A stretch of DNA of 64,000 bases, taken from positions 62,001 to 126,000 of the forward strand of contig JAJCXN010000044.1 in NCBI GenBank assembly GCA_029263415.1. Reading direction: 5' to 3'. Source of the DNA: Acidobacteriota bacterium (GTDB lineage: Bacteria > Acidobacteriota > Thermoanaerobaculia > Multivoradales > Multivoraceae). Below, piece by piece: positions 48,613-63,429 of the stretch (the first letter of the stretch is position 1; each line of letters opens with the position of its first letter). The translations under genes and the position numbers were made by a program. The notes below the pieces were generated by a model. The model made no database searches, was not told the DNA's origin, and saw nothing but the letters and a program-made list of their open reading frames with translations.

Positions 48613-51369
48613 CTAGTCTTTCGCGTCGTACCAGGTCTCGCCGCGACCTACCGAAACCACCAGTGGCACCGAGAGTTCAACGACCCCCTCCATCTCTTCC
48701 ACCAAAGTTGCCGCAGCCACTTCTTCGCTAGCCAATGGTGACTCGATCACCAATTCATCGTGCACGGTCAACAGCAACCGCGGTGCGCCCTTGCCGCTCT
48801 CGTGGTCTGCTGCCCATTCGCGTGCGAGCCGTTTGTCGACCTCTATCATCGCCAGTTTCAAGAGATCCGCTGCGGTGCCTTGAATGCGCGCGTTGATCGC
48901 CATGCGTTTGGCGTTCTCGCGCAGATTGCGATTACGGTTGTTGATGTCGGGCAAGTAGCGACGCCTGCCGTACATGGTCTCGACGTAGCCGAGCTCTTCA
49001 ACCGAAGCCAGTGTCTCATCGGTATAGGTGCGCACGCCCGGGAACCGTTCGAAGTAGGCGTCGATGAATTGCGCCGCATCTTTGCGCGGAATGCTCAATC
49101 GCTGAGCTAGACCAAAGGCGCCCATGCCGTAGGCGATACCGAAGTTGATGGTCTTCGCAACCCGCCGTTGATCCGCGTTGACCAGCGGTTCCGCGACGCC
49201 GAATACCGCTGCCGCGGTCGATTGGTGCACGTCGCCGCCGTTCTTGAAGATGTCGATCAAGGTCTCTTCTTCGGCGATGTGGGCGAGGACCCGTAGTTCA
49301 ATCTGACTGTAGTCTGCCACCAGCAAGCAGCAGCCTGAAGCCGCGCGAAATGCCTTGCGAATGCGCTGGCCCATCTCGGTGCGCACGGGAATGTTCTGTA
49401 CATTGGGGTTGCTCGACGAAAGCCTTCCGGTAGCAGCCACCGCCTGCTGATACGACGTCCGCAGTCGACCGTCGTCACTGACTAGGAGCGGCAGTGCGTC
49501 GACGTAGGTCGACCGGAGCTTGCTGATTTCGCGGTAGCTCAAGATCTTCTCGGGCAACTCGTGACCACGCGCGGAGAGCTCTTCGAGCGTCTCGGCGTTG
49601 GTCGAGTACGACTTGGTCTTGCGCGTGCGCTTGACCACCGGCAAAGCGAGCTTCTCAAATAGGATCTGCCCGAGTTGAGCAGGCGAGTTGATGTTGAACT
49701 CTTCGCCAGCCAAGGCGTAGATCTGGGCTTCGATCGTGTCCAGTTGCTCACCCATCTCTTTTGACATGACTTCGAGAAACTCCGAATCGAGCTCGATGCC
49801 AAGCTGCTCCATACGCAAGAGAACGGGCAGAAGTGGCGCTTCGATCGCATCGAACACCTCACGAGCACGGCCCACCGAGGCGTCGTCGAGTTGCGCCAAC
49901 AGTTGCGGTCGCAGCACCAAAGGCAAAGCCACCGCTTCGGAGGCGTATTGCAACAGTGGCCCGTGATCGGGCATCGGCACTTCGCTCTTCGAGAAGCCCG
50001 CTTCTTCGAGCTTCATGACTCGATGAAAGAGCCGGTCCATCGCCACTTCAGTCAGCGAGTAGCCGCGCGTGGCAGCCGGCAGAAGATAGCTCATCAGCAT
50101 GGTGTCGCTGAGTTGACAAGCAACGCGCGTGACACACAGAAGTTTGAGCGTCTCCTTTAAGTCATGCCCCACCAGTTCGAACTCTGGGTCCGCGCACCAA
50201 GCACCCACGCGCTCCACGCACGCGTCTCGCAGTACGGGATCGCGGAAGTCAGCGTAGTACGACTGCGGTAGTTCGCCGTCCTCCTCGCCAGAACCGAGCG
50301 GAGAAACTGCAATACCGACGAACTCGTGGTTACGCGACACGAGTTCAGCAAGGCACACCCCTTGCCAACCTGCGATGGTCTCCTGCCACTCAGCCACGTC
50401 GTTGATACGTACCGCGGGTGCAACCTCAACACCCGAACTCACTCCACCTGACGCCTTGAGCTCCTCCACCAAGGTCATGAACTCGAGTTCCCGGTAGAGC
50501 TCGAAGAGTGCGTCTTGGTCGGGTTGCTCAAAGACAAACTGCTTAGCGTCGAAGTCAATATCGAGATCACAGTCGATGGTGACCAAACGCTTCGATAGCA
50601 GCGCTTGCTCACGATGCTCTTGCAAGCCCTCGCGGTAGCTCTTGCGTTTGAGTTCGGGGGCCTTGTCGAGCAAGTTGTCGAGCGTGCCGTATTCACCGAT
50701 CAGGGTCTTTGCCCCCTTCTCGCCGATCCCCGGAACGCCCGGAACATTGTCAACGCTGTCGCCCATGAGTGCCAGAACATCGATCACTTGCTCCGGAGGC
50801 AGGCCGAAGTCCTCGGTGACCAGGGCAGGGTCATACAACTTCTCGCGGCCGGTATGGAGCATCGCAACGTCGTCGCTGACCAGCTGCATCAAATCTTTGT
50901 CGGCCGAGACCAGCACCACCTTGAAACCCTCAGCCGCTGCTTTTCTGGCCAAGGTGCCCAAGACGTCATCTGCTTCGAAGCCCTCCTGGCTGTAGATCGG
51001 TATACGGAAACCCTCGATCGCCTTGCGCACGTAGGGAATCTGAACCTTCAAATCATCGGGCATCGGCCGACGATTCGCCTTGTACTCTGCGTACTCATCC
51101 GTTCGGAAGGTCTTGCGACCCACATCGAAGGCAATGCCGATGAAGTCGGGCTCTTCGTCTTTGAGGAGCTTGCGCAACATCTGGATAAAGCCGTAGACCG
51201 CATTGGTCGGCAGACCCTTCGAGTTCGACAGGTTCCGGATCGCGTAGAAGCCACGGAAAATCGTCGAGTACCCGTCGATCAGGAATAGCTTCTTATCGGC
51301 ATTTGCTGGGGTCATAAGGCTCAGATCCGGGTGCGCGCGTTGGTGCATCAACAGAGGGTGCGTGGTCAT
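48613..51369 (-). CDS. polA: DNA polymerase I
   Basis: A replication and repair polymerase of about 918 residues. The 5'-3' exonuclease domain starts LFLIDGYSTIFRGFYAIRNL. The polymerase domain has LVADYSQIELRVLAHIAEE (motif A), KTINFGIAYGMGAFGLAQRL (motif B) and LLLTVHDELVIESP (motif C). The middle domain reads CLAELV, GHDLKET and YASEAV where active 3'-5' exonucleases have DTE, NxKxD and DAD residues, so proofreading is probably absent. Start candidates are ATG 51369 and ATG 51315 (MTPANADKKLFLID), the latter nearest the conserved core. The gene is divergent from the giant TPR/FG-GAP gene with only about 50-100 bases between. Confidence 0.97.
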   Translation of the reverse strand: MTTHPLLMHQRAHPDLSLMTPANADKKLFLIDGYSTIFRGFYAIRNLSNSKGLPTNAVYGFIQMLRKLLKDEEPDFIGIAFDVGRKTFRTDEYAEYKANRRPMPDDLKVQIPYVRKAIEGFRIPIYSQEGFEADDVLGTLARKAAAEGFKVVLVSADKDLMQLVSDDVAMLHTGREKLYDPALVTEDFGLPPEQVIDVLALMGDSVDNVPGVPGIGEKGAKTLIGEYGTLDNLLDKAPELKRKSYREGLQEHREQALLSKRLVTIDCDLDIDFDAKQFVFEQPDQDALFELYRELEFMTLVEELKASGGVSSGVEVAPAVRINDVAEWQETIAGWQGVCLAELVSRNHEFVGIAVSPLGSGEEDGELPQSYYADFRDPVLRDACVERVGAWCADPEFELVGHDLKETLKLLCVTRVACQLSDTMLMSYLLPAATRGYSLTEVAMDRLFHRVMKLEEAGFSKSEVPMPDHGPLLQYASEAVALPLVLRPQLLAQLDDASVGRAREVFDAIEAPLLPVLLRMEQLGIELDSEFLEVMSKEMGEQLDTIEAQIYALAGEEFNINSPAQLGQILFEKLALPVVKRTRKTKSYSTNAETLEELSARGHELPEKILSYREISKLRSTYVDALPLLVSDDGRLRTSYQQAVAATGRLSSSNPNVQNIPVRTEMGQRIRKAFRAASGCCLLVADYSQIELRVLAHIAEEETLIDIFKNGGDVHQSTAAAVFGVAEPLVNADQRRVAKTINFGIAYGMGAFGLAQRLSIPRKDAAQFIDAYFERFPGVRTYTDETLASVEELGYVETMYGRRRYLPDINNRNRNLRENAKRMAINARIQGTAADLLKLAMIEVDKRLAREWAADHESGKGAPRLLLTVHDELVIESPLASEEVAAATLVEEMEGVVELSVPLVVSVGRGETWYDAKD

Positions 51370-51419
51370 TGTGTTCACTCGGCACTCTACCCGGAGAAGC
51401 GAATCGCTATCATTCGTCC

Positions 51420-54400
51420 ATGAAGTCATTTATCCAACACCGCACCGCTACCTGCTTCGCTCTGTTTGCCCTTGCAATTGCATGCACCGTCTATGCGCAG
51501 AACCCTCCCACTGAAGAGGCGCTCTCGCTGCGCAACCTAGGTCTTGCCCAGCTTGAGAACGACAAACCGGAGGAAGCGGAGGCGACCTATCGCAAACTGA
51601 TCCGGGTCGCGAGCCGCGATCCGCTCCCACACGCCAACCTTGCGGTGGCGCTGATCCGACAACAGGAAAGCGCGGCGGCTCTCAAGGCAATCGACAAGGC
51701 ACTCGAACTGAGCCCCGGTCGCGGTGATCTGCTGTCGATCCGCGGCACCGTCTTAGCCTGGTCCAACAGCAACGACGAGGCGCTGCGTAGCTTCACGCAA
51801 GCCTTCGCCGCGACACCGAACCATCCGAAGACTGCATATCTTCTGTTTCGCCATGCCGGCATCTTGCGCGAGTCCAACGCGGATGCTCAAGCGGCCTACG
51901 ATGAAGCGCTGGCCCAGATGGTCGGGCTGCGACCGGACAACCTGACTATTCTTATTGAGCAGGGTCAACGCTCGATCGAGCGCGGCGACCGAGCAGCTGC
52001 GAGCCTAGCCTACCTGCGCATCCGGGAGTTGGTGTGGGCGATTGAACCTCGCAATCGACAATTGGCTGAACGCGTCTTACCGCGAGTTTTGACCGCGCTC
52101 GAGAACAACGAAGTCGAGAAGGCTCGGGTCCCGGCGCTCCAGCTCGGTAATGTTCTGCGTGCCTCGGGCCGCTACCGCAGCAGTCTGGTCGAGTTCTTTG
52201 ACGAGATCATCGGCTATCCGGTTGAGCGGTTCGCTGGCGAGACGGCGCCAACACCGTTCGGTCGCGGCATCGAGATCGCGTTTTCTGGCTCCATCCTGAG
52301 CAGCCTTCCCGGCACCGGCGCTCTGGCGGTTGCCGACTGGAACGAGGACGAGCGCGCTGACGTCGCATGGGGGCGAACAGAGGGCAAGGTCGAGGTGCGG
52401 ACCAGCGGCACCGACCCGATCGGCTTCGATGCAATGGCCACAGGCTTGGTCCTCGCGGACCTAGACAACGACGTCCAGCTCGACCTTCTGGTGATGGAAG
52501 CTGGCAGCACCCTGCTCGCGGCGGGGGCTGACGGAGCCTTCTCAGCTCCTACAGCTGCAGTGTCCGACATCTTTCCCGCAGCAATCGATCTCGACGTGCT
52601 CGACTTTGACAGCGACGGTGACCTCGACCTTGTTTCTGCAACAGCAGTTGAGAACGGCTTTGCGATCGACCTGCACCGCAACGACGGCACAGGCCAGCTC
52701 AGTTCGGTCGGCGGCAACGCGCTCCCAACTTTGGACCTTACGACCTTCTCCAAGATCCTGACCGGCGATCTCGATCGCGATGGCGACCACGACCTGCTGG
52801 TGATCAACAAGGAAGGGGTCCGCTGGGTCGACAACCTGCGCCAAGGCGCCTACCGCGACTTAACGCGAACAGCCGGACTGGCCCGGGCCCCGGGAGCAAC
52901 CGCCGCAGCAATTGGCGATCTGGACAACGACGGCACCGTCGATGTCCTCTTGGCGGGCACCACAGGCAGCGAACGCAAGGTGATCGCGTACCAATCCAAA
53001 GGCGGAGTTCTGCGCGCCGGCCCCAGTTTCGAAGCCAAGGGTGACATCAAAGAAGCACTGCTCTTTGATGCCGACAACGACGGTCTCTTCGACATCGCGC
53101 TTCTGTCAAGTGAGGGCGTCGAAGTGTTCTTGCGCCGCGGCACGCGCTATCAAGCGCTCACCGGTCTCGAGAAACCTGACAGCAAGCTCCGAGACTTCGC
53201 GGGCATTGCTGCCGATGACGCCGACGGCGACGGTGATCTCGATCTCTTTGCGGCTGGCCCCTCTGGGCTCTATCTCTACACCAACAACGGCGGCAACAAG
53301 AACGGCCACATGCGCATTAGCCTCCGCGGCCTGGCACAGAGCACCGGCAGCGACAAGAACAACTCGTTCGGTATCGGGTCAAGTGTGGAGGTGATCTCCA
53401 GTGGCGGGCGTCAGTATCGCGAAGCGCGCGGCCAGGTGACGCACATCGGCCTGGGCTCGGTCCAGGAACCCGACCTCCTGCGCGTGGTGTGGGCCAACGG
53501 AGTACCTCAGAACCGGATCGCTCCTGAGCCCAAGCAGCTGATCGTCGAAGAACAGGTGCTCAAGGGATCGTGCCCATTCCTCTACACCTGGACCGGAAAC
53601 GACAGCGGAAGCGGCATCGAGTTCGTGACCGACCTTCTCTGGGGTGCACCGATCGGTATGCCCGTCGCAGAAGGTATCTACGCCGAGGCGGATCCACACG
53701 AACTAGTTGTTGTCCAAGGCGCAGTGCCTCGCAATGGTCACTACGATCTCCGCATCACCGAGGAACTGTGGGAGGCGGCCTACTTCGACCAGACCCGGCT
53801 GTGGATCGTGGATCATCCCATTGGCACCGAGGCGACTGGCTCGCTGCGAGTGTTCCCTGGTCCCGCGCCGCCCAAGGCCGAATGGCCCGACCGAGTGTTA
53901 ATCGCCGCCGACCTTGAAGCCGTCACAGCTTGGGATGGCGACGGCGTTGAGGTCACCGAACAGGTGGCCGTTCGAGACCACGTCTACGCCGATGGCTACC
54001 AGCTCGGCGCATACCAGGGGATCTCAGATCCTTGGACCTTCACTTTCGACCTAGGTCAGGCGCCGGCGGCTCCAATCCGGCTCTTGCTCGACGGCTGGAT
54101 TTTTCCCTCGGACGCGAGCATCAACATCGCCGCTTCGCAGCGAACCGACATCGACTTCACCTTCACCCGGCTTGAGGCCTTAACCTCAGACGGCTGGCAA
54201 ACTCTGATCGACCCCATGGGCTTTCCCGCAGGCAAGACCAAGACCACCGTCGTTGACACCCCCGCCCTGCCGGCCGGAGTTAGCAAACTGCGCATCGTGA
54301 CCTCGCGTTGGCTGCATTGGGATCGCATTGCCTGGTCAGCGGTGATGCCGGATGAGCAGGCCAAGGTCATCGCTCAGCTCGATCCATCGTCTGCCGAACT

Positions 54401-54800
54401 GTCCTACCGCGGCTTCTCCCGAATGGTGCGTCGCGCTCCGAATGCCCCGCACGAGTACAACTACGACCAACTCCAGAGCGGCTCGCCATGGATTCCATTT
54501 CCCGGTGCATACACGCGCTACGGTGACGTGCGCGAGCAGCTGCTCACCGTAGACGGTGGCCTGGTGGTGATGGCTGCAGGCGACGAACTCCGGCTACTCT
54601 TCGATGCAACGGACCTGCCGCCCGTCGCTCGCGGCCACAAGCGCACACTGTTCCTTGAGAGCTATGGCTGGGACAAAGACGCTGACCGCAACACCCTCGA
54701 CGCCGACACCGCCTGGCCCTTGCCCGCAGGCACGGTACAAGGCAACGGCGCGAAGACCGAGCCACTGCTCACCCGCAAGATCACTGCCGACTCAAGATAG
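51420..54800 (+). CDS. Secreted TPR / FG-GAP (VCBS) / ASPIC-UnbV giant protein
   Basis: An exported 1126-residue protein. A signal peptide (TATCFALFALAIACTVYAQ) is followed by TPR units at about 35-260 (SLRNLGLAQLENDKPEEAEA). FG-GAP/VCBS propeller repeats with Ca-binding D-x-D-x-D motifs come next (FDSDGDLDLVSATA, DLDRDGDHDLLVIN, DADGDGDLDLFAA). An ASPIC/UnbV domain follows at about 640-690 (GIGSSVEVISSGGRQYREA, LRVVWANGVPQN). The last 400 residues form a conserved but unnamed C-terminal region (FLESYGWDKDADRNT). CRTAC1-like proteins of this build are frequent in Acidobacteriota; function unknown. I chose the start at ATG 51420 for the signal peptide. Confidence 0.88.
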   Translation: MKSFIQHRTATCFALFALAIACTVYAQNPPTEEALSLRNLGLAQLENDKPEEAEATYRKLIRVASRDPLPHANLAVALIRQQESAAALKAIDKALELSPGRGDLLSIRGTVLAWSNSNDEALRSFTQAFAATPNHPKTAYLLFRHAGILRESNADAQAAYDEALAQMVGLRPDNLTILIEQGQRSIERGDRAAASLAYLRIRELVWAIEPRNRQLAERVLPRVLTALENNEVEKARVPALQLGNVLRASGRYRSSLVEFFDEIIGYPVERFAGETAPTPFGRGIEIAFSGSILSSLPGTGALAVADWNEDERADVAWGRTEGKVEVRTSGTDPIGFDAMATGLVLADLDNDVQLDLLVMEAGSTLLAAGADGAFSAPTAAVSDIFPAAIDLDVLDFDSDGDLDLVSATAVENGFAIDLHRNDGTGQLSSVGGNALPTLDLTTFSKILTGDLDRDGDHDLLVINKEGVRWVDNLRQGAYRDLTRTAGLARAPGATAAAIGDLDNDGTVDVLLAGTTGSERKVIAYQSKGGVLRAGPSFEAKGDIKEALLFDADNDGLFDIALLSSEGVEVFLRRGTRYQALTGLEKPDSKLRDFAGIAADDADGDGDLDLFAAGPSGLYLYTNNGGNKNGHMRISLRGLAQSTGSDKNNSFGIGSSVEVISSGGRQYREARGQVTHIGLGSVQEPDLLRVVWANGVPQNRIAPEPKQLIVEEQVLKGSCPFLYTWTGNDSGSGIEFVTDLLWGAPIGMPVAEGIYAEADPHELVVVQGAVPRNGHYDLRITEELWEAAYFDQTRLWIVDHPIGTEATGSLRVFPGPAPPKAEWPDRVLIAADLEAVTAWDGDGVEVTEQVAVRDHVYADGYQLGAYQGISDPWTFTFDLGQAPAAPIRLLLDGWIFPSDASINIAASQRTDIDFTFTRLEALTSDGWQTLIDPMGFPAGKTKTTVVDTPALPAGVSKLRIVTSRWLHWDRIAWSAVMPDEQAKVIAQLDPSSAELSYRGFSRMVRRAPNAPHEYNYDQLQSGSPWIPFPGAYTRYGDVREQLLTVDGGLVVMAAGDELRLLFDATDLPPVARGHKRTLFLESYGWDKDADRNTLDADTAWPLPAGTVQGNGAKTEPLLTRKITADSR

Positions 54801-54857: not shown

Positions 54858-57698
54858 CTAGGGCGACGACCAAGCGCTGGTGCTACCACTCTCGAACCCA
54901 TCCGAGAAGATGGGATCCTGGGTTACCGCAGTCGCGCAGTCGGAGAAGAACGATGTGTTGCCGTCAGCATCGGTGGAGGTCGCGGTCACGATCTCTCCGA
55001 CGGCCAGGGTCCCGCCCGGGCTCACCGAAAAAGAACTGCTCCCGCTGGTCACGAGTGCGCTCCCCAGATATCGCCGCCCCTCACCAGCTCCGCTGCCATC
55101 ACAGACGACGTTGGCAAAAAACTCAAGGGTGGTATCTGAAGCGAGCGGCCCATCGAAGGTACCGGCAACCGCCACCGGCGTCTCGAACACTGTTGTCAGT
55201 TCCGGTGGTTCTTGACCGTCGTTGGTGCCACCGCTGAGGCCGATACCGCCGCCCGAGTTGTCGTATATGGAGTTGGCGCTGACAGTGTTGCCGCTGAAGC
55301 AGCAGCTGTTCTCGGTGACGCGAACACCATCGCCATCGTTGAAGGCGATGGTGTTGGCGGCTCCGAGGGCAGCCCCGCCAACGGTGTTGTCGTCCGCCTC
55401 ATCGATCAGTACACCATGACTGCCGTTGGCAAGATCCGTGCTGCCACCCGCGTTAGTGCCAATGAAGTTGCCGACGATCAGGATGTCCTTCGGCGTCACC
55501 CCAACGCGATCGATCTCGATCCCTTGTTGCAGGTTGCCACCGATGACATTGGCTTCCACTTTGACGGTTACATCGGCGTCGTTGCCAAAGAGATTGGTCA
55601 TTTCGATGCCGTCCTCACCATTCGGGATCACGTCAGTCAAAGCCAGGTTGGTGCCGATGGAGTTCCCCGCAACGACGTTACGAGTGATCGCTGTCAGCCC
55701 AAAATCTGCAATGTGAACGCCGTCGCGATCGTTACCCGAGATTAGATTGCCGGCGCCCGCGACGGTACCGCCGACGGTGACGTCGCTCGCATTCTCGATG
55801 TACACGCCGTGTTCAAACCGACTGATCGCAGCCGTACCAAGAGCATTCGTCCCGATTCGATTGCCTTGGACCTTGGTCCCCGTCGATCCGGTAATGTGAA
55901 GACCGTAGGCGAACGCAAAGTCTGTGTCGTTGCCAGCGATCACATTCAACGCGGCAGGAATCGTGCCGCCAATCAGCGAGTCGATGCCACCGGTGACCCT
56001 CACACCGGACTGACTGGTGCCAACGAGCCGGGCTGCACCGTCTGCTGACGCGCCGAGCATGTTGCCCTGGACCAAGGTGCCGCGGCCGCCGCCAATGCTG
56101 ATCGGGCTCGAGCTAATCGCAGGCGTGAGCGAGCCTGAGATCACGTTGCCTTCGCCTGGCAAGGTGCCACCAATAGTGTTAGCGAGGCAATCGGTGAGGC
56201 CATCGCTACTGATGCCAGTCACCGTAACCCCGCCCCGAGCCATCACGCCACCCGCCACGCCCATGTCGACCGGGGTAGAACCGTCGGCGCGCACGCCGAA
56301 GTAGTTGTTGATGACCCGATTGTCTTCGGCGCAGTTAATTCCACTGCCGATGTCGAGGCTGCCCCTTGCAAAGTAGTTTCGTTCCGCTAGCAACGTGCCG
56401 CCAATCGTGTTGCCGCTGGAGTAGACATCAAGACTGGCATCGCGTAGAACAGTCGTGAGGGCGGGGGTAGTCCCGAAGTAGTTCCCAGTCACAAAGTTGC
56501 CGTCGCCCGTCTCGAGTTCCAGACAGACGCCGTCGAAGATCATCCCGCGCACGGTGCTCGCGCCACCCTCGATCTGAAGGGCACAGCTGCCGGGCGTCCC
56601 GCTTGGATCCACGGTCGCCAGGCCTGCACCGTCGATCACTACCGGCCCGGTGGCCACAATGCCGCCGCGGGCAAAGGTTGGCGAGATCGTCATCGCACCA
56701 GAAAAGGAGATCTCCTGCGTTCCTACAACCACGTTCGCCAGTTCGATCGCGGCTCGCAACGTGCACGGACCCGGGGCTGCACAGCTGACTCCAGACTCAC
56801 CTTCCCCTTCATCACCACTGGAGTTGACAACGTAATCCGAGCCAACCGAGCGGTTCGCGGTGGCGAGAGGTCGTGCGGCCGTTGATGGCCATCGCACGCT
56901 CGCCTGTCTTGACCCGCGACCGACGACGACCGCAACTGGAGCTTTTTGCATGCGCGTCACGGCGACCAATTCGGCATTCAAATGCACGACTCGAGACGGC
57001 GCGGCCAGAGCACCATGCGGCGACTGGAACACCTGGTGGACAAGCTCCTCGCCAGCCGCAACAATCATCACCAGATCCTGGATTCCATCTGCCGGCACAA
57101 GGTCGCTCTTAGCCCAAGAAACCATCTGGCCCACCAAAGCGATCGGTTGAACCGCGGAGAACCGACCGCGTCCGTCACCTCGCGCTACTAGGAAGAAATC
57201 ATCCCCTGAGGCAGCCAATAGCAAGTCGAGGTCGCCGTCACCATCAACATCTGCAGACAAGAGCGACTCGACCGGCGAATCCAGCGTGACGAAGTGTTCA
57301 TCATCTCTCGGCTCATAGAAGAGTGGTTGATCTAGACCGCGAAGGCCAGTCGGCCGCCTCGACATCTCGGAATGAATGGCCGCACGACCGACGAAAACAA
57401 CCAGTCGCTGCGACGCGGTGCCGCCGACATCGCGGACCGCCACCAAGTCAGGCACACCATCGTTGGTGAAGTCCGCGACATGCAGCAGAGCATCCCTTTT
57501 CGAATCATCCCCAGCCCATGCCTCGACGGTCTCAAGGCTAACCGCGAGCTCAAGCTCCGAAGATCCCGCTGCCAGGACAATCAGCGTATCCGCGCCACCG
57601 TCGAGTTCTGAAGCGGTCGCGGAGCCAACCACAAGCGACATCAAGATCAAAAGTGTCAGTCCGAGCCTGGGGCTTTGTCGTCGTGCGACCGTGAACAT
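54858..57698 (-). CDS. Secreted right-handed beta-helix protein with FG-GAP-like start and DGFESG tail
   Basis: A 946-residue exported protein. The signal peptide is LGLTLLILMSLVVGSATASE. The first 250 residues have FG-GAP-like Ca motifs (DFTNDGVPDLVAV, DVDGDGDLDLLLA). From about 300, SSGDEGEGESGVSCAAPGPC and TLRAAIELANV open a parallel beta-helix of the 'CSLREAI' surface type. Its coils repeat IGGT...NVISGN (e.g. TVGGTVAGAGNLISGNDRDG). The C-terminus is IFSDGFESGSTSAWSSP. TAGGAG lies 7-8 bases before the ATG. It is 132 bases downstream of the CHAT gene in the same direction. Adhesin or surface layer role is inferred. Confidence 0.87.
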   Translation of the reverse strand: MFTVARRQSPRLGLTLLILMSLVVGSATASELDGGADTLIVLAAGSSELELAVSLETVEAWAGDDSKRDALLHVADFTNDGVPDLVAVRDVGGTASQRLVVFVGRAAIHSEMSRRPTGLRGLDQPLFYEPRDDEHFVTLDSPVESLLSADVDGDGDLDLLLAASGDDFFLVARGDGRGRFSAVQPIALVGQMVSWAKSDLVPADGIQDLVMIVAAGEELVHQVFQSPHGALAAPSRVVHLNAELVAVTRMQKAPVAVVVGRGSRQASVRWPSTAARPLATANRSVGSDYVVNSSGDEGEGESGVSCAAPGPCTLRAAIELANVVVGTQEISFSGAMTISPTFARGGIVATGPVVIDGAGLATVDPSGTPGSCALQIEGGASTVRGMIFDGVCLELETGDGNFVTGNYFGTTPALTTVLRDASLDVYSSGNTIGGTLLAERNYFARGSLDIGSGINCAEDNRVINNYFGVRADGSTPVDMGVAGGVMARGGVTVTGISSDGLTDCLANTIGGTLPGEGNVISGSLTPAISSSPISIGGGRGTLVQGNMLGASADGAARLVGTSQSGVRVTGGIDSLIGGTIPAALNVIAGNDTDFAFAYGLHITGSTGTKVQGNRIGTNALGTAAISRFEHGVYIENASDVTVGGTVAGAGNLISGNDRDGVHIADFGLTAITRNVVAGNSIGTNLALTDVIPNGEDGIEMTNLFGNDADVTVKVEANVIGGNLQQGIEIDRVGVTPKDILIVGNFIGTNAGGSTDLANGSHGVLIDEADDNTVGGAALGAANTIAFNDGDGVRVTENSCCFSGNTVSANSIYDNSGGGIGLSGGTNDGQEPPELTTVFETPVAVAGTFDGPLASDTTLEFFANVVCDGSGAGEGRRYLGSALVTSGSSSFSVSPGGTLAVGEIVTATSTDADGNTSFFSDCATAVTQDPIFSDGFESGSTSAWSSP

Positions 57699-57830
57699 GG
57701 GCAGTGCTCCTATGAGGGTTCAATGTTCTGTTTGACCGCTGCGGAGTCACCGCCGCTCATCGAACAATGAGAGCGCCCAGAGCCAGTGCCGTTACACCGA
57801 ACACACGGATTCGGCCACAAACCGCTGCCC

Positions 57831-60260
57831 TTAGGGCACGCCTGTCAAAGTGAAAGCGGCCCAGAAGCGTGGATGAGCAAGAGACACCGGCCGCTCACGC
57901 AACACCACTCGACGCTGGGACGTCTGCTGGACCAACTCTCGCCGGGTCAAGAGAAGAGCTCTTGACCGTGGATTCCCTTCGGCAAGGTGGCCATAGAACG
58001 TCTTCATAAAACGCAGCGTGGCTTCGTCGTCGACATCCCACAGCGACGCCAGGACGGACGAAGCACCAGCGTAGAGAAAGGACTGCTGCAGCCCCACAAA
58101 GCCCTCGCCCCGGCGCAGTTGGCCCCGTGCAGTGCGGCACGCGGACAGTGTTACCAAGTCGGCGTCGAGGGTCAACGCCAGCACTTCACCTGCCAACATC
58201 AACCCATCTGCCTCGGCGTCGCCTTCGAGCAGCAGAGCCGAGGTCATAGGAGCAACATCATCAACCAAGCCGTGAGTCGCGAAGTGCAGGATCGAGTAGG
58301 GAGAGCGTCTCTTCAGCACGCTCAGCAACCATGACTCTGACGCAGCGTCGGCCAAGACCACGTTCGATTCAGGCAGCAGCTTGCCGATTGCGCGGGCCTC
58401 CTCCTGTGCGAAGCGTAGCGCCTCGAGCGACGACCTTTGGGCGAGTCCGCGCACGGCGCTACCACCGCCGAGCGGATCGCTCGCGACCCCGGGTGCCACA
58501 GCCAGTACGGCCGTCGCTCGCCCCTCGCCCTTTCCTCGGCTGCGCGCTGCAGACCGTAGGGTGCGCTCGCGTAGCAAGAGCAGGCTACCCGCAGACGGCG
58601 AATAGACGATCTCCTTCTCGAGCCCCAGATACGAACAGTCACGATAGTCGCGATGAAACACCGCCGGGCCGCCCTCGTCGCGGTCTACCCCCTCCGTGCA
58701 GTGAGAGACCAATGCTTCGAACGCCAGGCGATTGAGATCACCGTGCCTCACGATTAGCAGCCGTTGCGCTTGATGCACAGCCGCCGGCAACGGCTCAATC
58801 AACAGACGAAAGAGCGCCCGCCCGTGCCCTAGGTGTTCGCGGGCGCCTCCGCTGAGGTCAAGATCCTCGGCCAGCGCCTGACTCCGTAGAGGCTTCGTGT
58901 ATCCCTCGATCGCTGCTTCCAGCACTCCTGCGGCAAGTGGCACCTGAGTGGTCAAAATTTGAGTCTTGGTCAATGTCCACGCGATCAACCGATCCTGTGC
59001 TCGCCAATATGCGACCAGCACTTCACCCTCTGCGAGCGAGTCGCGCAACTGCTCCTGGCTTGGCTGAGTCGGCCTGACCAGCTCGGCATAGCGCACATCC
59101 TTGCTGCGGATCGCCGAGTGGTGGTCTGCGAGTGCTACCGCGAGTTGCTGGAATGAATCGCCCTCAGCGGCATCTTGCTCACCAAATCGCAGTTGAGCCA
59201 TCTGCGCATAGAGTTCGAGTTCCCGCTCACGCAACGCAGGTACGCGTCGCGCTGCGCGGTCCAGATCGCGCTCGCGCAACATGTCCAGAAAACTGCGCGC
59301 GTGGAACCGCTCAGCAATGTCGAACGCCTGATTGCCACGATAGGTGTCAGCCAGCAGCAGGATCCAACGCTCATAGGCATTGACCTGGCGATCGAGGAAA
59401 TTGGTGCGCTCAGCGCCCAGTAGCTGGTTGGCATCGCGGCTCTCTTCAAAACCCGCGACCGCAGAGCGAAGGTCGTCCTCGGCGTCTTGATAGCGCCCCA
59501 GCTTGCGCAGAAGATCTGCGCGATTACAGTAGGCAAAACGCAGTGTCTGTTGGTCGTTGTGGCTGGCTGCGAGAGGTACCAGAACGTCGTAAGCGGCCAG
59601 TGCCTCATCGACGAGGCCGAGCGCTTGCAGACCGTAGGCTTTGGCGCCCAAGGCACGCGCCGCCTGCGGCTCGGTCACCGGATTGACCTCTTTCAGGACG
59701 CGCACCGCCAGCTCAATCGCTTCCGCGGGCCTAAGTGACGCCATCGCGTTCGCGCGATCTGCGTCCACCTCCGTTGCCCGTTCCACATCCCCCACGGCGC
59801 GCAACAGCTCAACCGAACGTTCCCAGCTGATGAGAGCCGCCTGCCGTCCCTCATTGATGAGCAGCAGAGCACCCCGCGCGAACTCAAGCTCGGCCTCTAT
59901 GCGCCCACTGTGGGTCGTTTGTTCGAGCAGCCGAACCGCTTCCACTAGATCTTCGTTGGCTCGATGTCGGCTCCCAGCGTTGGCCCAGGAGCGTCCTTTC
60001 TGCGCAAGCAATCGCCCGTGCCAATAGTCGTCGAGTGCCTGCCTCGCACGCACGACCGCCGGCTCCAGCACCGCGACAGCTCCTCTGTAGTCCATTGCCC
60101 GGTGCCGTTGCGCCGCCTCTTGTGCGCTCGCTTCAAACGCCCCGACTTGTGCCCAACCGGGGAGGCTGACCATCAGCCCGAGCACAAGCGTCGGTACAGC
60201 GCGGCCGACGATCGACCCCCCAGGTCGTCGCCTCTCAGGCTCTGTCGGCGAAAGTGCCAT
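57831..60260 (-). CDS. Exported TPR-CHAT (caspase-like) protease
   Basis: An 809-residue protein. A signal peptide or anchor (VPTLVLGLMVSLPGWAQ) is followed by about eight TPR-like helical repeats (residues ~45-380; YGLQALGLVDEALAAYDVLV, FAYCNRADLLRKLGRYQDAE). The C-terminal CHAT domain (about 480-809) has the catalytic His in SILHFATHGLVDD and Cys in LVTLSACRTARGQLRRGEGF, then SFLYAGASSVLASLWDVDDE, so it should be active. I chose ATG 60260, which opens the signal peptide; the frame stays open upstream into the anti-sigma gene. It overlaps the anti-sigma 3' end (60271) only if a longer start is used. The setting suggests it is controlled with, or acts on, the sigma/anti-sigma pair. Confidence 0.88.
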   Translation of the reverse strand: MALSPTEPERRRPGGSIVGRAVPTLVLGLMVSLPGWAQVGAFEASAQEAAQRHRAMDYRGAVAVLEPAVVRARQALDDYWHGRLLAQKGRSWANAGSRHRANEDLVEAVRLLEQTTHSGRIEAELEFARGALLLINEGRQAALISWERSVELLRAVGDVERATEVDADRANAMASLRPAEAIELAVRVLKEVNPVTEPQAARALGAKAYGLQALGLVDEALAAYDVLVPLAASHNDQQTLRFAYCNRADLLRKLGRYQDAEDDLRSAVAGFEESRDANQLLGAERTNFLDRQVNAYERWILLLADTYRGNQAFDIAERFHARSFLDMLRERDLDRAARRVPALRERELELYAQMAQLRFGEQDAAEGDSFQQLAVALADHHSAIRSKDVRYAELVRPTQPSQEQLRDSLAEGEVLVAYWRAQDRLIAWTLTKTQILTTQVPLAAGVLEAAIEGYTKPLRSQALAEDLDLSGGAREHLGHGRALFRLLIEPLPAAVHQAQRLLIVRHGDLNRLAFEALVSHCTEGVDRDEGGPAVFHRDYRDCSYLGLEKEIVYSPSAGSLLLLRERTLRSAARSRGKGEGRATAVLAVAPGVASDPLGGGSAVRGLAQRSSLEALRFAQEEARAIGKLLPESNVVLADAASESWLLSVLKRRSPYSILHFATHGLVDDVAPMTSALLLEGDAEADGLMLAGEVLALTLDADLVTLSACRTARGQLRRGEGFVGLQQSFLYAGASSVLASLWDVDDEATLRFMKTFYGHLAEGNPRSRALLLTRRELVQQTSQRRVVLRERPVSLAHPRFWAAFTLTGVP

Positions 60261-60270
60261 CAGCGGACCG

Positions 60271-61356
60271 CTAGCGCTCGGACTCCGCAGCCAGGCTCTT
60301 GAGCCACATCGCTGCGAGTTCGGAGCCAATCCCGATGCGCGTGTACAAAGCCAGCCCAAGTTCCTGAGCGTGACGCAGTTGGTCCAAGTCTTTTGCGGCC
60401 TCCAACAGTTCAGAGCTAGCCGCATCAATGCGCCCCGCTCTTGCAAGGGCGGTGGCGGCAAGTGCGGGATACTGACTCAAAGCGCTCAACGAACGGGCCA
60501 ACCGGCCTTGTTCATCGCTTGAAGACACCCGGAACGGAACGTACGTCGATGCGATCACGTCTCCCTCAATTGAGGCGTTCACCTTCCACACGTAGTCTTG
60601 GCCCCGTTCGAGAGCGCTCCTGCCTTCGGGGAGTCCTGAGCGCAGGATCTCGATGCCGCCGTGGCGAGCGCTCGATTCAGCCACCCAAACCGCAACCGGC
60701 TGCTCGTCGATATTCAGAACATGGATTTCATACTCCACTCGCTCCATTGCGCCGCCTTGGCCAGCACCGCCAACCGCGGCAAACGCAAAAACGGGACGCT
60801 GGGTCTCAACGCTCGACCAGCGCGGCGAGAGCGGTTCGGGCACCGCACTGCTTAGCGACCGAACCACAGCGCCCGAGTTCGTGACCGGGATCTTGGTTAG
60901 CAGGTCGTTCACGGGCCACTGACCGTCTCGCAGCAGGGACTCCACCGATCCACGCTCCGCCACCCCTAGCGACGCGTAGTCGGCCAAGGCGAGACCAGCT
61001 CGAGGTCCTACTTCCTTGGAGAACCACAACACAGCACTCAGACCGACCAAAAGCAGAGCAGCAGCCGCCAATGCGAGCCGGTTCCATCTGATGCGACTGG
61101 AGCTGGTTTCCACCTGCGTGCCAACGCTTTCACCCCCAGCGATGAGTGCCACGGTTCGGCACTCCTCGCAGTCGGCCAAGTGCTCGTCGATTCGCTCCAG
61201 TTCTTTCGTGTTCGAGATCACGCCGTCGATGTACGCGGTCAGTGCTGCGTCGTCCAGATGCAGGCCTTGAGGCGGCCCGGCAGGAGCGCGCAGCACAGCG
61301 CCGAGATCAGCTGCTAGTCGATCCAACTCGTGGGTGGTGTGTTCGTCGCTGGTCAT
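60271..61356 (-). CDS. Zinc-finger transmembrane anti-sigma factor
   Basis: A 361-residue protein. Residues 30-75 form the anti-sigma zinc finger (AYIDGVISNTKELERIDEHL, then ADCEEC, with His59, Cys63 and Cys66). A single span lies at about 95-115 (ALAAAALLLVGLSAVLWF). A periplasmic domain of about 240 residues follows (EYEIHVLNIDEQPVAVWVAE, LERGQDYVWKVNASIEG). It is 58 bases downstream of the ECF sigma gene and ends 10 bases before the CHAT start. The layout is a membrane-anchored sensor releasing the sigma factor upon an envelope signal, as in the RseA type (inference). Confidence 0.88.
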   Translation of the reverse strand: MTSDEHTTHELDRLAADLGAVLRAPAGPPQGLHLDDAALTAYIDGVISNTKELERIDEHLADCEECRTVALIAGGESVGTQVETSSSRIRWNRLALAAAALLLVGLSAVLWFSKEVGPRAGLALADYASLGVAERGSVESLLRDGQWPVNDLLTKIPVTNSGAVVRSLSSAVPEPLSPRWSSVETQRPVFAFAAVGGAGQGGAMERVEYEIHVLNIDEQPVAVWVAESSARHGGIEILRSGLPEGRSALERGQDYVWKVNASIEGDVIASTYVPFRVSSSDEQGRLARSLSALSQYPALAATALARAGRIDAASSELLEAAKDLDQLRHAQELGLALYTRIGIGSELAAMWLKSLAAESER

Positions 61357-61414
61357 GTCACTAATGAGATCCGTACTTCTTGTTAGCGTTACAAAAGTTC
61401 AAGGCGTTCTTGGT

Positions 61415-61993
61415 CTAGGGCCCATCCTGCGAGTCGAGGAATTCCGGCGCCACCTCGCCCACCTCGCGACGCAAGCGCACCAAGGCATCATGCACAGCCT
61501 TGCGGGCTGCGCCCGGCTTCAAACCGATCAAGCCCGCGATGCGGGACGGTGGCTCTTCGTCGCCGAAGCGCAGCCGCAAGACCAGGCGATCCCGCGCCGA
61601 GAGACGCGCTATCGACCGTTCGACAGCACTGCGGCGCTCGCGGGTAGCCACCAGTTCCAGCTGCGGCGCCGGAGCCGCGACCTCTTCGAGATCTCGCTCT
61701 GAGGCCTCGTCCGCAACATGTTGCGGTCGGTTGAGCCACAGCCGAGTTGCGATCACCGTGACATAGGTAGTGATCTTGCCCTCGCCACGCCAAGCCGCCA
61801 GCGCCCGATGATCACGCTCCCACAGCCGCTCAATGGTCGCTTGGAGCAACTCCTCCGCCGCTTCTCGATCGAGCCCAAAACGACCCAAGGCGAGACCGAT
61901 CACCAAACCTCGGCAGCGCTCCGCCAACCGATCCGCGGCATCAGGATCTCGGGTCAAGACAGCCTCGACCAGCTCGACGTCACTCTCAGCCAT
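61415..61993 (-). CDS. ECF-type RNA polymerase sigma factor
   Basis: A 192-residue sigma factor. Region 2 is seen in DRLAERCRGLVIGLALGRFG, EELLQATIERLWERD and the promoter-melting stretch WRGEGKITTYVTVIATRLWL. Region 4 has VERSIARLSARDRLVLRLRF and the helix-turn-helix SRIAGLIGLKPGAARKAVHD. The region 2-4 linker contains EVAAPAPQLE. It stands at the head of a sigma / anti-sigma / CHAT / beta-helix run. No confident promoter motif was found in the 38 bases before it. Confidence 0.92.
   Translation of the reverse strand: MAESDVELVEAVLTRDPDAADRLAERCRGLVIGLALGRFGLDREAAEELLQATIERLWERDHRALAAWRGEGKITTYVTVIATRLWLNRPQHVADEASERDLEEVAAPAPQLELVATRERRSAVERSIARLSARDRLVLRLRFGDEEPPSRIAGLIGLKPGAARKAVHDALVRLRREVGEVAPEFLDSQDGP

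Positions 61994-62031: not shown

Positions 62032-63429
<1,398 letters not shown>

Follow-up and report, generated by a model that had tools for sequence, protein, structure and literature searches.

An operon for an ECF sigma factor, a membrane anti-sigma factor and an exported TPR-CHAT protein in Acidobacteriota: a possible split form of the DdvA switch

Introduction

What might a caspase-like protein of the CHAT family do outside the cytoplasm, when its gene adjoins that of a membrane anti-sigma factor? The question is raised by a group of leftward genes in a 64,000-nucleotide stretch of DNA (the window) from a Thermoanaerobaculia-type Acidobacteriota genome of 6.9 Mb (G000). They encode an ECF sigma factor, its putative anti-sigma factor, a TPR-CHAT protein and a secreted beta-helix protein (Table 1). 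The initial annotation had suggested that the exported CHAT protein could either cleave the anti-sigma factor or mature its secreted neighbour, by a route not described before. The four genes have the coordinates and intergenic gaps (58, 10 and 132 bases) given there. The run is longer than four genes, since the codirectional transporter gene at 62032-63429, 38 bases upstream of the sigma gene, brings it to at least five; this transporter is probably a bystander, and at the other loci the sigma gene has another upstream gene.

Table 1. Features of the operon and its surroundings in the window
Feature	Position	Strand	Basis
ECF sigma factor, 192 aa	61415..61993	-	TIGR02937; orthologues at all six other loci
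Membrane anti-sigma factor, 361 aa	60271..61356	-	Pfam zf-HC2, alignment, AF2 model, hydropathy
Exported TPR-CHAT caspase-like protein, 809 aa	57831..60260	-	PF12770, AF2 model, fold comparison
Secreted FG-GAP / beta-helix protein, 946 aa	54858..57698	-	Pfam; G052 homologue
Sodium-dependent transporter	62032..63429	-	PF00209
Promoter-like element GTAACGCTAACAAGAAGTACGGATCTCA, upstream of anti-sigma gene	61365..61392	-	One of three exact genome matches
Promoter-like element GTAACGGCACTGGCTCTGGGCGCTCTCA, upstream of beta-helix gene	57768..57795	-	Position; exact-form match
His663 of CHAT protein, catalytic-type (ATHG)	58272..58274	-	Invariant, 7 orthologues
Cys708 of CHAT protein, catalytic-type (SACRT)	58137..58139	-	Invariant, 7 orthologues
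DGFESG-type C-terminal tail (IFSDGFESGSTSAWSSP) of beta-helix protein	54886..54902	-	Tail-motif search

Results and discussion

The sigma factor, the anti-sigma factor and the CHAT protein

The sigma factor scores 60.9 bits with TIGR02937 (sigma70-ECF; cut-off 42.9) and has only regions 2 and 4 (Pfam), as is characteristic of ECF sigma factors. The product of the next gene matches zf-HC2 above the cut-off (25.2 bits) and carries the HxxxCxxC motif beside an ECF sigma gene; its zinc-finger residues H59, C63 and C66 are invariant in an alignment of the seven loci described below. Hydropathy analysis gives one hydrophobic span (approximately residues 94-112) after the zinc finger, and a single span in this position was found in all seven anti-sigma factors, although it is weak in L066. 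The protein thus combines the two features of zinc-finger transmembrane anti-sigma factors (ZAS), as first proposed. Beyond the span, the AF2 model shows a low-confidence disordered linker, an Ig/Fn3-like sandwich (residues 174-277) and C-terminal helices. Overall pLDDT is 58; the model is poor outside the sandwich and reaches about 70-90 over it, and a fold search returned generic Ig/Fn3 matches only. All seven proteins share an arginine (R166) in the linker, immediately ahead of the sandwich. Arginine is the residue after which separase and gingipain R cut, and R166 is therefore, hypothetically, a candidate P1 residue.

The CHAT protein matches PF12770 with an E-value of 1.5e-57 (195.7 bits; curated cut-off 24). 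Its length is counted from the ATG that begins MALSPTEPER, and the ORF listing extends the frame to a TTG at 60461. The AlphaFold (AF2) model is of good quality (pLDDT 85, pTM 0.86), with a TPR superhelix forming about half of the protein. Residues 1-33 are of low confidence, which is usual for signal peptides. Judged by eye, an N-terminal hydrophobic export segment is present in all seven orthologues, and the His/Cys pair is invariant in them, so that the predicted export and the intact dyad of the initial annotation extend to the whole set. Among 106 related CHAT domains examined, 102 also have the pair, and two of the four that lack it are fragments (rows OWN_C48 and OWN_C3b, in the wrong reading frame, were disregarded). 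This retention, a mark of conservation rather than of activity as such, suggests that proteolytic activity has been kept.

Conservation of the operon

Orthologues of the CHAT protein were found in seven of 149 genomes of the class, representing seven genera and four families, and were absent from the other 142. The six other orthologues score 349-425 bits and the next best protein 167. At all seven loci the genes for sigma factor, anti-sigma factor and CHAT protein are adjacent on the same strand, with those for the sigma and anti-sigma factors directly upstream of that for the CHAT protein. Start and stop codons of neighbouring genes frequently overlap, and those for anti-sigma factor and CHAT protein overlap or nearly abut. 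Orthologues at the six other loci are 41-50% (sigma) and 24-35% (anti-sigma) identical to those in the window. A separate search with the anti-sigma factor recovered five of the six other loci, and the sixth (G043) was found by tblastn, which also identified the sigma or anti-sigma factor at G037 and G057. The synteny is far beyond chance, and the three genes form a conserved operon that is intact in every carrier. Synteny beyond close relatives, on which the initial proposal depended, was therefore borne out within the order, the beta-helix gene being the exception (swapped at five of the seven loci). Outside the order the exact operon was not seen in a species-wide scan with two short peptide patterns, which may have missed others.

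The window genome contains nine CHAT genes, and up to 18 were counted in its relatives. Five of the nine lie less than 5 kb from a sigma gene, against 0.9 expected under simple uniform placement (P = 0.001). Three further CHAT genes stand beside genes for a sigma factor and a zinc-finger anti-sigma factor, in clusters that also encode a protein with a DGFE-type tail (L051:2542-9098, L053:5947-11133 and L055:6593-11957); the sigma factors of these clusters are non-orthologous. An operon in Acidobacteriia encodes a sigma factor and a TPR-CHAT protein that lacks an export segment, together with a small HxxxCxxC protein (L122:2274-6448, L128:4205-8383 and L132:7521-11727); at L130:3520-6964 the small protein is missing. 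This operon is a possible cytoplasmic counterpart of the module. An anti-sigma factor fused to CHAT was not seen among the Acidobacteriota loci examined.

A common promoter-like element and an exchangeable secreted protein

Comparison of upstream regions at the seven loci revealed a common element, GTAACG-N(17-18)-[TA]CTC[AC]. An AAC-containing -35, a spacer and a -10 are the typical layout of ECF promoters. The element precedes the secreted-protein gene at every locus: this gene heads the operon at five loci and is divergent at G052, and in the window a second site lies ahead of the anti-sigma gene. No such element was found upstream of the sigma gene itself in the window. In 659 kb, eight of nine matches fall at the module, compared with two in 2.3 Mb of unrelated loci. 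The exact TCTCA form has three matches in the whole genome, two of them in this operon, and a control with the reversed pattern gave seven. The element is thus at chance frequency genome-wide, and its support comes from its repeated position at the module. Other genome matches were considered as regulon members and rejected, as they occur at control level and have no consistent downstream genes. Because further matches are nearly absent, the regulon would appear to be very small.

The secreted protein itself is not fixed. That of the window has Beta_helix and FG-GAP_3 domains above the Pfam cut-off and shares 31% identity over 844 aa with the product of the divergent gene at G052. At the five other loci its place is taken by an unrelated secreted family of about 600 aa (for example L065:5837-7606), whose members have 38-56% mutual identity and no Pfam match; apart from tail-level matches, this protein is missing from the G000 and G052 genomes. 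Such exchange makes the secreted protein more likely to be a regulated output than a fixed, obligate substrate, and it weakens the early suggestion that the CHAT protein matures the beta-helix protein. A TPR / FG-GAP / UnbV gene also lies at 51369-54800 in the window, and a homologue (42% identical) stands beside the module in G052 (L062:2-2626); the neighbourhood common to these two beta-helix-type loci may be wider than the module.

A tailed secreted protein adjoins the module at all seven loci, the tail being DGFE in six and DKFE in G037. The window genome as a whole has 81 DNA matches to DGFE[ST]G-type tails of secreted proteins, compared with one in the control. Most relatives have many such tails and genus g2 has almost none; the tail resembles a sorting or anchoring signal of a kind not yet described.

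Relation to known systems

Membrane anti-sigma factors for which site-1 cleavage is the trigger are known from RseA/DegS and RsiW. The module described here resembles these, but the site-1 proteases of both are not clan CD cysteine proteases. In CalpL/CalpT/CalpS an ECF sigma factor is likewise freed by a protease that cuts its inhibitor; in contrast to the present case, that protease is of the Lon type, cytoplasmic and triggered by a cyclic nucleotide.

A direct phmmer search of PDB sequences with the window CHAT protein gave no match, and it was profile and fold comparison alone that revealed its relatives. The closest solved folds, by Z score, are those of Csx29 (29.5), separase (25-27), DdvA (21) and gingipain (20). 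Csx29, a TPR-CHAT protease, cleaves Csx30, an inhibitor of an ECF sigma factor, in the type III-E CRISPR route Csx29/Csx30/CASP-sigma, in which all three are encoded at one locus (PMC10028731, which also discusses regulated proteolysis of anti-sigma factors of the RseA/DegS type). Unlike the module, that route is cytoplasmic and triggered by RNA. The window CHAT protein reaches 18.5 bits with the NCBIfam Csx29 model, far below its cut-off of 300, and no CRISPR parts were found at this operon.

When a profile of the CHAT domain only was compared with the PDB, the best match was DdvA of Myxococcus xanthus (E 3.3e-6), ahead of Csx29. DdvS/DdvA (PDB 8rot, 8rw5, 8rlz) likewise comprises an ECF sigma factor, a zinc-finger transmembrane anti-sigma factor and a TPR-CHAT region, which has the same fold as the window protein (residues 395-991 of DdvA: 550 aligned, rmsd 8.0, 17% identity; VIA-align). 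A profile alignment shows the His and Cys positions retained (ATHG, AACE), and the anti-sigma profile weakly matches the zinc-finger domain of DdvA (E 0.009). The difference is one of arrangement: in DdvA, zinc finger, span and TPR-CHAT share one chain, whereas at all seven loci two separate genes encode an anti-sigma factor with an Ig/Fn3-like domain and, beside it, an exported CHAT protein. These comparisons point to DdvA as a putative fused version of the neighbouring anti-sigma and CHAT proteins. The TPR-CHAT part of DdvA would be periplasmic, because it is placed after the transmembrane segment. According to PMC4374960, it is not known what signal inactivates DdvA.

The claim that such a route was undescribed holds for the split exported form, for which no description was found in the literature searched, a set that included neither the principal survey of ECF classification nor the paper on the DdvA structure. 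It does not hold more widely, given the cytoplasmic Csx29/Csx30/CASP-sigma route (PMC10028731) and the membrane anti-sigma factor DdvA with its own CHAT region (PDB 8rot). The individual parts are of known kinds; the novelty lies in an exported CHAT protein split from the anti-sigma factor, in the constant joint inheritance of the genes, in the common promoter-like element and in the swappable output.

A putative envelope switch and its alternatives

The evidence that the CHAT protein is part of the signalling path is good, and we regard this role as highly probable. The link first proposed between the exported CHAT protein and the membrane anti-sigma factor has gained support from synteny at all seven loci (four families), co-occurrence, the common promoter-like element and the fused DdvA. 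How the protein acts is less certain. Cleavage of the anti-sigma factor has, in our estimate, a little under an even chance; it is plausible because the dyad is retained, the linker is exposed and Csx29/Csx30/CASP-sigma provides a precedent. The scheme built around it is put forward with similar reserve: a switch at the envelope resembling a split DdvA, whose CHAT protein would sense or cleave the periplasmic part of the anti-sigma factor and so bring about release of the sigma factor.

Observed gene order, conservation, dyad, export segment, common element and folds form the basis of this scheme, from which we infer topology in vivo, contact between anti-sigma factor and CHAT protein, cleavage, and recognition of the element by the sigma factor. 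The membrane zinc-finger anti-sigma factor would retain the ECF sigma factor in the cytoplasm, with the exported TPR-CHAT protein as its periplasmic partner. The TPR superhelix would sense or bind a signal, either a ligand or some damaged part of the envelope; the caspase-like domain would then most likely cut the exposed anti-sigma linker. Intramembrane and cytoplasmic proteolysis would follow and release the sigma factor. Once free, this would transcribe from GTAACG-N17-TCTCA the genes for anti-sigma factor and CHAT protein (feedback) and for one secreted surface protein (output).

The presence of TPR-CHAT within the anti-sigma chain of DdvA fits a purely structural sensor equally well, and about half of the CHAT protein is TPR superhelix. 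The protein might accordingly dock on the Ig/Fn3-like domain as the fused region of DdvA does, a signal shifting the conformation of the anti-sigma factor or exposing it to another site-1 protease. We consider such a non-proteolytic role less likely than cleavage; the His/Cys pair, invariant in the orthologues and present in nearly all relatives, suggests that activity has been kept. Somewhat less likely still is that the CHAT protein processes the tailed secreted protein (maturation, sorting or release), the sigma factor merely co-regulating enzyme and substrate. A tailed neighbour with the same element at every locus would fit this, as would the tailed proteins of the three paralogous clusters and the persistence of the tail while the secreted protein differs. 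However, CHAT is absent from G053 (98% complete), which carries 16 tail motifs, and CHAT-rich genomes such as G027 and G042 have at most five tails, so that tails in general appear to be independent of CHAT; nor does processing explain the fused arrangement of DdvA. A general processing enzyme for DGFESG-tailed proteins was rejected on the same decoupled counts.

CHAT proteases are known as effectors in conflict systems, and the protein could in principle be a sigma-controlled effector (for example, a periplasmic toxin or an enzyme of predation or defence) with no role in signal perception. This is very improbable, as the CHAT protein is always encoded with the anti-sigma factor and the DdvA fusion places CHAT on the sensing side. 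A defence effector was also sought with PADLOC and discarded, the only matches (E 0.026-0.04) being no better than background.

Conclusions

Exported CHAT proteins are numerous in Acidobacteriota, and we found no assigned role for them. The split envelope switch may, more speculatively, have a wider meaning: a periplasmic TPR-CHAT protease could be the dedicated site-1 protease of an anti-sigma factor in a portable cassette with swappable secreted outputs, DdvA being the fused form and control of anti-sigma factors by CHAT being general in bacteria, in cytoplasm and periplasm alike. Both the DdvA signal and the role of exported CHAT proteins become directly testable with an operon that is present in seven genomes, keeps the dyad intact and has a predicted promoter and output. 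If the scheme is true, it would connect the CRISPR-linked control of sigma factors by CHAT proteases with ordinary envelope signalling.
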